A DNA stretch of 64,000 nt from Thiemannella venezuelensis (GTDB lineage: Bacteria > Actinomycetota > Actinomycetes > Streptosporangiales > Streptosporangiaceae), in contig NZ_JACHJJ010000013.1 in assembly GCF_014203605.1 (NCBI RefSeq), forward strand, positions 1 through 64,000, given 5' to 3'. The notes under the pieces are model-generated. The model was not told the origin of the DNA. It did no database searches and was given only the letters and a program-made list of their open reading frames with translations. The first letter of the stretch is position 1, and each line of letters begins with the position of its first letter. This document shows positions 6,533 to 12,587 of the stretch, in pieces. The position numbers and the translations under genes are program-made.

Positions 6533-8158
<1,626 letters not shown>

Positions 8159-8232
8159 GACACCCGGCCCACTGTGCGGCCGCCTCCGCATCGCCCGGTT
8201 CCTGCCATGCCGGTGCCGATGCCGGACGGCCG

Positions 8233-8269
8233 CGACGCCCCGGGACTCGATCCGAGTCCCGGGGCGTCG
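8233..8269 (+). terminator. 17-bp perfect hairpin ending the proline operon
   Basis: Positions 8233-8249 and 8253-8269 are exact reverse complements with a 3-base ATC loop, 75 bp after the P5C dehydrogenase stop. It lacks a T-run, as is usual in high-GC actinobacteria. It also separates the operon from the regulatory palindromes that follow. Confidence 0.75.
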
Positions 8270-8297
8270 CCGTCGTCGCGGTCCGCGCCCCGACGTT

Positions 8298-8342
8298 CGT
8301 CAGCATATGTTGACGTCTCGGCTTCGTCAGCATATGCTGACG
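8298..8342. promoter_or_regulatory. Twin 18-bp palindromes upstream of the HTH/Clp-N operon
   Basis: CGTCAGCATATGCTGACG at 8325-8342 is a perfect palindrome. CGTCAGCATATGTTGACG at 8298-8315 differs by one base. Their centres are 27 bp apart, and the second ends 8 bp before the ATG at 8351. This is the classic look of a double operator bound by a dimeric regulator. The co-encoded small HTH protein is the obvious candidate for autoregulation. Confidence 0.8.
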
Positions 8343-8350
8343 ATGTGTCC

Positions 8351-8563
8351 ATGAGCACCGATCTCGAACAGGCCGTGCACGACACCGACCCGGACACGGC
8401 GCTGCGCGCCGTCGCCCGCCTGCGCCGCCTGGTGGAGCAACTGGAGGCCCAGCACGTGGCGGCGGCACGCCGGGCGGGCTGGTCCTGGCGGGACATCGCC
8501 GTCCGGCTCGGCGTCACCAAGCAGACCGTCCACCGCAAGCACCACCGCGTCCAGGAGGACTGA
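8351..8563 (+). CDS. Small helix-turn-helix DNA-binding protein
   Basis: The protein has 70 residues from the ATG at 8351 (MSTDLEQAVHD). An N-terminal amphipathic helix (LRAVARLRRLVEQLEAQHV) could dimerise. It is followed by a helix-turn-helix: AARRAGWSWRDIAVRLGV, then TKQTVHRKH. There is no clear Shine-Dalgarno, and palindromic operator sequence occupies the space just upstream, so a leaderless mRNA is possible. A GTG at 8345 is an in-frame alternative. Its stop overlaps the start of the Clp-N protein gene (TGATG), so the two are translationally coupled. It probably binds the twin palindromes and represses its own operon. Function beyond this is unknown. Confidence 0.75.
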   Translation: MSTDLEQAVHDTDPDTALRAVARLRRLVEQLEAQHVAAARRAGWSWRDIAVRLGVTKQTVHRKHHRVQED

Positions 8564-9267
8564 TGTTCCGAGGCGACCACCCCGAACTGGGCCGGGCACT
8601 GGGCCGGGCCGTGGAACTGGCCCGCGGTCTCGGCCATCCCCGCACGGGCAGCGAGCACCTGCTGCTCTCCCTCGCCGCGGGCGGCGCCGTCGCCGCCGCC
8701 CTGGCCGAGCACGGGGCGGCGGAGGCCGCGCTCCGGGAGGCCGTCCGCCGGTCGGCGCCCGCCGGGGCAGGCGCGGCCGCCGACCGGGACACCCTGGCCG
8801 CGCTCGGTGTCGACCTCGACCGCCTGCTCGGCGCTTCGGGAGCGAGGGCGCTGGACCGCCCGCCCTCACGTGAGCCGCTGCTCCCGCTGGGCGCGGCCGG
8901 GGCACGTCGCCGGTGCGCCCGGATGAGCCCGCCGCTCGGCCTCGACGCCCAGGCGGCCTACGAGGCGTCGCTGCGGCTGGCGCTCGCCCGCCGCGAGCGC
9001 GAGCACAGGACCGAGCACCTCGCCCTCGCGCTCATCGCGCTCGATCCCGGCGCGGCATGGGCGCTCTCCGCCACCGGCGCCGACAGGCGGGCGATCCTGG
9101 CCGACCTGGCCGCCGCGTTCCCGCCGCCGCGGCGCAACCCCCTCCTGCGCGCCGAGCGGCGGCTCGCCCGGCGGATCCGCCACCGCGACATCGTGCGGCG
9201 CTACCAGCGCACCACAGGACGCACCGCGACGTCGGGCCCCGCCCTCGCCGCGCTCATCGGCGCCTGA
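8563..9267 (+). CDS. Clp N-terminal-domain protein (two Clp-N repeats, no ATPase)
   Basis: The protein has 234 residues. Two copies of the Clp repeat (ClpA/ClpC N-domain) are visible. One is near residues 8-65 (LGRALGRAVELARGLGHPRTGSEHLLLSL, quoted in parts). The second is near 128-188 (AYEASLRLALARREREHRTEHLALALI, quoted in parts). The basic C-terminal tail is rich in Arg. There is no AAA+ domain, so it is not a chaperone ATPase. Stand-alone Clp-N proteins can act as adaptors or substrate sensors for Clp complexes. It is coupled to the small HTH protein, suggesting a module in which Clp-linked proteolysis controls the repressor, or the reverse. That model is inferred. Confidence 0.7.
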   Translation: MFRGDHPELGRALGRAVELARGLGHPRTGSEHLLLSLAAGGAVAAALAEHGAAEAALREAVRRSAPAGAGAAADRDTLAALGVDLDRLLGASGARALDRPPSREPLLPLGAAGARRRCARMSPPLGLDAQAAYEASLRLALARREREHRTEHLALALIALDPGAAWALSATGADRRAILADLAAAFPPPRRNPLLRAERRLARRIRHRDIVRRYQRTTGRTATSGPALAALIGA

Positions 9268-9364
9268 CGCACCCGCTCCCCCGCCGCCTCGGCGACGGCG
9301 CGGGGTCCCGCGGGGACGCGGCGGCGCCGGGCGCCGTCTGCGGCGGCCCCGCGCCGCCGGGCCT

Positions 9365-10069
9365 TCACGACGCGGGGTGCGCGGCGGCCGAAGGCGTGCG
9401 TACACCGCGGATGATCAGGTACAGCATGAGGCCGAACTCGGCGGCGGAGGTCGGCAGCGAGACGACGACCCGCACCGGATCGGGCGCGTCGGGCAGCGCG
9501 AACGCGATCAGCGGGTCGGCGATCCAGGTCAGGCAGCCGATGACGAGCAGCACGCCGAGCCAGTCGGGGAACATGCTCGACCGGTAGGCGACGTACCCCA
9601 TGGGCAGCAGCCACAGGCCGAACAGGACGCCGCCGAGGACGTAGCCGTGGTGGTGCAGGTCGAGCATCAGCAGAGCGAGCGAGTCGCGGCCCGCCGCGCC
9701 GGCTCCTGAAGCGTAGACGGGGTCCGTGGCGACGACCAGCGCCCCCGCGTGGAAGGTGAGCAGCGCCAGGATGCCGCCGGCCCCGGCGATCACCAGCGTC
9801 AGCAGCGCCGTGGCCGCGCGGGGATGGGCCGGGTGCAGCAGGCGGTGGAGGGCGAGCCCGAGCGCGATGAAGGTCGTCGCCATGAGGATGTCGGCGGCCA
9901 GACCCAGGCGGAACAGGGTCTCCCGGTCGGCGATGTTGGCGGCGGTGGCGGCGGCGTCGCCGGGGACGTATACGGGGCCTCTGCTGTAGAACTGCGCCCA
10001 GACGCCGAGGACGACGAGCGTCAGATAGAGCAGTCCCGAGATTCTGGCGATCGTTCTGGGGTGGGTCAC
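9365..10069 (-). CDS. DUF4386-family integral membrane protein
   Basis: The protein has 234 residues from a GTG at 10069 that sits behind AGGAGG. Upstream codons in frame are not needed. It starts VTHPRTIARISGLLYLTLVV and has about six hydrophobic segments with the DUF4386 features ARxxGLLYL, a glycine/proline-rich loop after the first helix, and a late WIADPLIAF segment. The family's function is unknown. It is divergent from a NarL-type two-component system with a 159-bp gap that carries two overlapping inverted repeats. It is therefore a candidate target of that system, as often seen when a membrane gene sits back-to-back with its regulator. It converges on the Clp-N gene. Confidence 0.75.
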   Translation of the reverse strand: MTHPRTIARISGLLYLTLVVLGVWAQFYSRGPVYVPGDAAATAANIADRETLFRLGLAADILMATTFIALGLALHRLLHPAHPRAATALLTLVIAGAGGILALLTFHAGALVVATDPVYASGAGAAGRDSLALLMLDLHHHGYVLGGVLFGLWLLPMGYVAYRSSMFPDWLGVLLVIGCLTWIADPLIAFALPDAPDPVRVVVSLPTSAAEFGLMLYLIIRGVRTPSAAAHPAS

Positions 10070-12138: not shown

Positions 12139-12332
12139 CCCCCGCCCGGGGCGGCGCTCGCGGAAGCCGTCCGGGGAGTACGGGTCCGCCGACGCCCCGG
12201 CTCCCCCGGGCAGCCGGTCGCCACAGGGCCGGTTCCGGAAGGAGACTGGAGAATCTCGGATCCTCCTGTAACAATCCCCTCGAACCATCACTCTTGTATG
12301 ACGAACCCACCCGAACGAAACGGAAAAGCCCG

Positions 12333-12587
12333 ATGAGCGACTTCGACGTCACCACCACCGACTACTACGACACCGACGGCGACGGCAGCACCGACGTGCA
12401 GCTCATCGACACCGACGGCGACTACGTGGCCGACGAGGAGCGCTACGACACCGACGGCGACGGCGTGACCGACGTGGTCTACCTCGACCACGACGGCGAC
12501 GGCTACACCGACGAGGTCCGCGTCGACCTCAACGGCGACGGCGTCTCCGACTACACCGAGTACACCGGTCCCTTCCCCACCGCCTGA
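12333..12587 (+). CDS. Small acidic protein of calcium-binding-type DxDGDG repeats
   Basis: The protein has 84 residues from the ATG at 12333, starting MSDFDVTTTDYYDTDGDGST. It consists of about five tandem units of the form (D/N)xDGD(G/Y)xx(D/E) separated by 11-13 residues (DTDGDG, DTDGDY, DTDGDG, DHDGDG, DLNGDG). These match the loop of dockerin, EF-hand and thrombospondin type-3 calcium sites. There is no signal peptide or membrane segment, so it should be cytoplasmic or exported by an unknown route. It stands alone between the response regulator and the DinB-like gene, with a hairpin downstream. A calcium buffer or a spore/envelope structural role is possible; none is demonstrated. Confidence 0.65.
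   Translation: MSDFDVTTTDYYDTDGDGSTDVQLIDTDGDYVADEERYDTDGDGVTDVVYLDHDGDGYTDEVRVDLNGDGVSDYTEYTGPFPTA

Follow-up and report, generated by a model that had tools for sequence, protein, structure and literature searches.

ClpC1 is a drug target in tuberculosis, and ClpC2 is known to act as its decoy. In mycobacteria, ClpC2 (Rv2667 and the M. smegmatis protein) has been described as a cyclomarin-sensing Clp-N autorepressor and sponge, which recognizes the site CGTCAAC-n5-GTTGACG in its own promoter. Many of the species analyzed there have more than one copy of this site, which overlaps the -35 and -10 elements; the authors presume a leaderless transcript, and cyclomarin A relieves the repression (sections of PMC10030653 consulted here). 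In the same sections, the DNA contact is assigned, on mutant evidence, to R185/R189 of the Clp-N domain, the dimer is described as important for high-affinity DNA binding, as supported by the dimerization mutant R57A and by the C-domain alone, and crystals are reported for an N-domain chain (8ADA, 72 residues) and for residues 94-252. The term "helix-turn-helix" (HTH) occurs 0 times in PMC10030653, and an HTH region in ClpC2 has already been noted in passing, via HHpred, in the consulted part of PMC13284704. Ecumicin and ilamycin analogues bind ClpC2 with no induction (consulted part of PMC12913811). In Streptomyces papers, as far as their consulted parts go, the name "ClpC2" refers to a Clp-ATPase, i.e., a different protein.

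Here we describe a pair of genes, encoding a small HTH protein and a ClpC-type N-domain (Clp-N) protein, in a 64,000-nucleotide stretch of DNA from Thiemannella venezuelensis (hereafter "the window"). The pair is preceded, on the forward strand, by two operators of the CGTCAGC-N4-GCTGACG type located 27 bp apart, i.e., a distal operator, CGTCAGCATATGTTGACG (8298-8315), which has 18 bp and is one base off a perfect palindrome, and a proximal operator, CGTCAGCATATGCTGACG (8325-8342), which is a perfect 18-bp palindrome. The two nearly identical 18-bp palindromes that an earlier note on this DNA had reported are thus real, as 2 matches with up to 3 mismatches were observed in the window as compared to 0.02 expected from shuffled sequences. 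The genome search that the same note had proposed found, in 8,183,972 bases, the two window sites as the only matches with up to 2 mismatches; at 3 mismatches, two further places matched the operator.

Overlap of the palindromes with promoter elements is a point absent from the earlier note. The predicted promoter (8310-8338, forward strand) consists of TTGACG (8310-8315), a 17-nt spacer and TATGCT (8333-8338); read directly from the letters, the 3' half of the distal operator is the -35 element and the proximal operator contains the -10 element, so that the two palindromes hold both. No other promoter-like pair was detected on either strand between 8150 and 9420 (shuffle mean 0.0). As a start 6-7 nt past the -10 element would fall at approx. 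8345, where GTG 8345 is the first HTH codon, the HTH-clpN mRNA is probably leaderless, with a start predicted from sequence. We also observed a perfect 17-bp inverted repeat with loop ATC (8233-8269), which separates the operators from the aldehyde-dehydrogenase-like gene upstream of them; this hairpin, which has no T run, is possibly a terminator, and the promoter/terminator scan of 8150-9420 listed no T-run terminator.

The first gene (8345-8563, forward strand) encodes an HTH protein of 72 aa if read from GTG 8345, while a start at ATG 8351 gives an ORF (8351-8563) with the 70 aa counted in the earlier note. Among relatives, the start codon was located 3 nt (90 loci), 4 nt (42 loci) or 2 nt (7 loci) past the 16-bp core of the proximal site, i.e., in 139 of 143 loci; as 132 of these 143 loci show a distance of 3 or 4 nt, GTG 8345 is favored, and with it a length of 72 aa. 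The protein passed the Pfam cut-off for HTH_23 (27.1 vs 24.6 bits), belongs to a conserved family and was modeled by AlphaFold with a mean pLDDT of 85.8 and helices at residues 3-11, 16-43, 48-55 and 59-70, the recognition helix being TKQTVHRKH (residues 58-66). Scores for sigma-70 region 4 and ECF families remained below the curated Pfam cut-offs (Sigma70_r4_2, 23.2 vs 25.7 bits; Sigma70_r4, 16.1 vs 24.1 bits; Sigma70_ECF, 18.7 vs 21.1 bits). A Foldseek search with the 72-aa model returned nothing at E <= 0.001, and the 50 matches listed, mainly generic HTH and sigma region-4 structures, did not include 8ADA; the argument for homology with ClpC2 is thus carried by sequence profiles. A phage- or plasmid-borne HTH was unsupported, as searches of 50,697 records from phages and 72,556 from plasmids gave no match with E <= 1e-5.

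The second gene (8563-9267, forward strand) encodes a ClpC-type N-domain protein of 234 aa, and its ATG (8563-8565) shares one base with the stop codon TGA of the HTH gene (8561-8563). The Pfam Clp_N match (E 5e-08) was confined to the first repeat (residues 16-62); the second repeat gave weak phmmer matches (residues 124-199) and is visible in the AlphaFold model (mean pLDDT 83.0). Foldseek aligned approx. 185 columns of this model to ClpC1 N-domains (best match 8ibp, E 1.6e-05) and also aligned the model to the ClpC2 C-domains 8b9o and 8ad9. No ATPase domain was found in the 234-aa protein. The earlier description of this protein as two Clp N-domains without ATPase thus needs correction as to the domains: the protein is rather one ClpC-type N-domain of two repeats, to which an extra C-terminal helical part is added. 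While the protein shares its fold with the ClpC1 N-terminal domain (8ibp, 3wdb), it differs from ClpC1 in that it has no AAA+ modules and is a small protein of its own, encoded in one operon with an HTH gene.

Contrary to the earlier note, whose author knew of no described system of this layout, mycobacterial ClpC2 is a fused HTH-Clp-N autorepressor with the same promoter-operator anatomy, and the window pair looks like a widespread two-gene variant of this kind. Both have a Clp-N domain without ATPase, half-sites of the GTCA...TGAC type, a twin operator over the -35 and -10 elements, a leaderless start (predicted, in the window) and a homologous N-terminal HTH; a comparison of the HTHs of split pairs with the N-domains of fused proteins gave 98.2% and E 4.4e-14 in hhalign, while the window HTH alone gave a weak single-sequence match to 8ADA (E 0.083). 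On the other hand, the window encodes two ORFs (8345-8563 and 8563-9267) whereas ClpC2 is one polypeptide, and the window half-sites are CGTCAGC placed 4 bp apart, as compared to CGTCAAC placed 5 bp apart for ClpC2. The gap between half-sites was N5 in 9/9 fused-type loci with sites and N4 in 183/185 split-type loci with sites; 4 of 13 fused-type loci had no sites. A literature search, judged partly by title and weak, with subscription journals mostly outside it, found no actinobacterial HTH/Clp-N pair.

The assignment of the ClpC2 contact to R185/R189 would make the Clp-N domain, rather than the HTH, the reader of the operator. The 8ADA chain ends with SMGV, and the aligned relative at locus L124 continues directly with the recognition helix TKQAAQKRF; the homologous recognition helix of ClpC2 is missing from both ClpC2 crystals. 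We infer that, in ClpC2 as in the split pairs, operator recognition is the task of the N-terminal HTH and that the Clp-N domain modulates it; R185/R189 of ClpC2 may add DNA contacts.

On balance, we hold that the pair is probably a two-gene "split ClpC2" autorepressor, in which the HTH protein represses its own promoter and the Clp-N protein serves as sensor and decoy. The HTH protein, presumably as one dimer per palindrome, would block its own promoter at the -35 and -10 elements and thereby keep the leaderless HTH-clpN mRNA low, while the co-translated Clp-N protein would supply the pocket with which ClpC1 and ClpC2 bind their substrates as well as peptide antibiotics directed at ClpC. Once such an antibiotic or stress clients fill the pocket, the repression would be released, and the Clp-N protein would accumulate as a decoy and spare ClpC1. 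Overall, the pair is real, well conserved and probably self-repressing; we infer the autorepression by the HTH protein and, by analogy with ClpC2, a role of the Clp-N protein as possible ligand sensor and sponge. The residues that contact cyclomarin (F96, F172 and E181; F2, F80 and E89 in ClpC1) are F, L and E in the window as compared to F, F and E in ClpC2. They are kept in 5, 5 and 2, respectively, of 8 window-like Clp-N proteins and in 22, 17 and 22 of 24 other split Clp-N proteins. Given the replacement of F80 by L in the window and the drift among window-like Clp-N proteins, the ligand of the window subfamily is probably not cyclomarin-like.

A different reading, which comes near the earlier note's idea of a Clp-like adaptor that influences a repressor, is a proteolytic switch, in which the HTH protein would be a ClpC1P1P2 substrate and the Clp-N protein an adaptor or anti-adaptor controlling its degradation. 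ClpC adaptors such as MecA dock on Clp-N domains (according to the titles of PDB entries 2y1r and 3j3r), and the two proteins are co-translated. However, no adaptor family of the MecA or ClpS type was among the Pfam and NCBIfam matches of either protein at E <= 1, the Pfam matches of the pair being only HTH families and Clp_N, and in the ClpC2 precedent the repressor binds a ligand and lets go of the DNA without being degraded; we thus regard this switch as unlikely.

The two-gene form is common in actinobacteria. Among 60 relatives searched (E <= 0.001), the HTH was matched in 51 genomes, a number that takes in fused forms, and the Clp-N protein in 28; in addition, a phylum-wide draw of 159 genomes contained 50 with an HTH match at E <= 1e-6. 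At least 575 confirmed relatives came from a scan across named genomes, and the closest among the best 80 that were kept were five loci from Saccharothrix, Lentzea and a Hamadaea bin, with identities of 77-89% for the HTH and 63-72% for the Clp-N protein. Within the genus, only one further genome was searched, and it had no equally close copy (best HTH identity 53%); this patchy occurrence of the window subtype suggests horizontal transfer. In three sets of loci selected by their HTH, a Clp-N ORF was located within 900 nt downstream of 57/73, 78/78 and 23/25 split-type HTH genes, respectively.

These data also bear on the possibility that the HTH protein only autoregulates while the Clp-N protein is a mere effector (decoy or holdase), the inducer acting on the HTH or via another factor. 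Genes under the operator do exist as HTH without Clp-N (8/73 and 1/25 HTH genes in two sets had the operator but no Clp-N) and as Clp-N without HTH (loci L240 and L284, where the Clp-N gene is directly 3' of the twin operator), which indicates that the parts can act apart. Against this separation, the ClpC2 fusion couples both domains, and the genes of split pairs are tightly coupled: among the 43 pairs with a located Clp-N start (starts picked automatically, tally by hand), 37 have their genes spaced by -4 to +4 nt. We therefore give a purely effector-type Clp-N protein a low probability.

A toxin-antitoxin-like unit, with the HTH protein as a RelI-type antitoxin and the second protein as its partner, is very improbable: the RelI antitoxin of RelS-RelI is, like the window protein, a small HTH protein related to the HTH region of ClpC2 (consulted part of PMC13284704) and is weakly matched by the window HTH (9sdc, E 0.009), but the partner of RelI is, in that part of the source, a RelE-superfamily toxin, whereas the neighbor of the window HTH gene is a Clp-N protein and no RelE/BrnT-type toxin was found beside it.

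Conservation of the operator was assessed, for presence frequencies, in HTH-selected loci alone, using 168 HTH matches from 170 loci (recognition-helix pattern required; one locus counted its match twice). GTCA-N8/9-TGAC was present in the 330 nt preceding the recognition helix for 145 of the 168 matches, with two or more sites for 135, one site for 10 and none for 23. Among the 135 twin loci, the sites were spaced by 27 bp (76), 28 bp (49) or 29 bp (7) in 132 loci, and TANNNT was found inside the proximal site in 134. When the twin operator was searched alone, it was present in 230/297 family genomes, as compared to 1/297 for a reversed control pattern (read from table). Conversely, eight loci (L071, L074, L075, L076, L077, L079, L082 and L083) have no GTCA...TGAC twin upstream of the HTH; this subgroup shows, clearly in most, an asymmetric related pair, GCAAC...GTTGACTA and TAGTCAA...GTTGCT. 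Five further loci (L092, L093, L094, L098 and L099) carry HTH genes with the helix SKQAVHKKY, with no operator and no Clp-N neighbor detected.

For the analysis of covariation between recognition helix and operator, 219 of 244 ORFs were kept (at least 240 nt upstream, duplicates removed), and mutual information and a tree were computed for those 185 split-type genes whose site was suitably placed. In the proximal site, G at base 5 of the half-site was accompanied by T or S at residue 61 in 35/35 cases, and A by A or G in 156/159 and by S in 3/159. The residue following K/R-Q, i.e., T61 in the window, ranked top of 34 columns for base 5 (mutual information of 0.647 of 0.70 bits), and for base 6 the best of these columns was residue 64 (R64 in the window; 0.202 of 0.79). 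As the set includes loci found by their operator, with a search pattern that allowed A or G at base 5 and only C or T at base 6, the association for base 6 is less clean. When all half-sites were counted, T-type HTHs had G at base 5 in 71/94 and A in 23/94; in the window, the exception is an A at base 5 in the half-site that doubles as the -35 element. On the best tree, the base changed at least 8 times and the residue 7 times (6 and 7 times in another run), with 1 independent pair of changes on supported branches and 8 if unsupported branches are allowed; the covariation is thus very tight and its independent support thin, and with one such pair significance was out of reach for the tree-based test. 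Overall, covariation of recognition-helix residues with operator bases suggests, from sequence comparison, that the HTH protein very likely reads the twin operator.

The second pair of this genome (C5:229377) has A at the position of residue 61 and GTCAAC-type sites; as it differs from the window pair in both helix residue and sites, the two pairs look insulated from each other. The earlier view of a dedicated twin operator before a self-contained HTH and Clp-N unit is supported by the covariation and by the lack of any other genomic site with up to 2 mismatches. Palindromes that overlap a promoter are a common design and could belong to an unrelated global regulator, but with only two genomic sites at that threshold, and with sites that are found with the HTH gene in different families and vary in step with its recognition helix, such a regulator hardly comes into consideration.

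We also compiled 51 twin-operator loci, i.e., 30 from the operator search of family genomes, 20 hand-picked from its list and the third twin of the window genome. The operators preceded HTH and Clp-N genes in 35 loci, an HTH gene alone in 1, an HTH gene and an ABC transporter in 3, an ABC transporter without HTH in 5 and a Clp-N gene without HTH in 2; the remaining 5 preceded FAD monooxygenase-like genes (3 loci, 2 of them scanned) or DUF998-like genes (2 loci, 1 scanned). A divergent ABC gene was also located beside 5 of the 35 HTH and Clp-N loci. Few genera account for the ABC and monooxygenase cases, which lack independence, and the counts are given without a base rate for ABC genes. The ABC proteins scanned were MsbA-like permease-ATPases or DrrA-like ATPases, and one of the two DrrA-like proteins passed the curated DrrA cut-off (322.2 vs 312.45 bits). 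In three loci from one genus (L288, L289 and L291), the FAD-dependent monooxygenase-like genes begin a few nt past the twin operator; the two scanned proteins scored 296.3 and 307.4, far below the rifampin-monooxygenase cut-off of 800. The rifampicin-associated element (RAE) is also a palindrome near the promoter of resistance genes, including a monooxygenase (rox); as described in the consulted part of PMC10719064, however, it is a single 19-bp palindrome approx. 20 bp downstream of one start site, whereas the window twin covers the -35 and -10 elements, and identity of the window sites with RAE was set aside on this geometry alone.

Taken together with the pair itself, which suggests that actinobacteria have an alarm for stress or antibiotics, these loci allow a wider and tentative hypothesis, which we consider possible and would not call probable. 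Under this hypothesis, split and fused HTH/Clp-N repressors might form an actinobacterial antibiotic alarm, with Clp-N domains sensing compounds that attack the ClpC1 N-domain; one twin-operator code (residues 61 and 64) might switch on the decoy, ABC exporters and FAD monooxygenases, and the DNA reader of ClpC2 might be a helix at approx. residues 73-81. This extension of the pair to an antibiotic-response regulon is bold but unproven. If the two-gene form is common in actinobacteria, it would provide a simple genetic system for studying what Clp-N sensors detect and how the repressor is released, and it leads to a prediction of the DNA-reading part of ClpC2; with the operator code, exporters and modifying enzymes of the same response could be identified from sequence.

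The third twin operator of the window genome (C19:131398-131440; L212:1501-1543) precedes an ABC transporter and has no adjacent HTH gene, and its GTCAAC half-sites match those of the second pair (C5:229377), not those of the window pair. Elsewhere in the window, a small, very acidic ORF (12294-12587) consists largely of DTDGDG-type repeats, which we take to resemble calcium-binding repeats.
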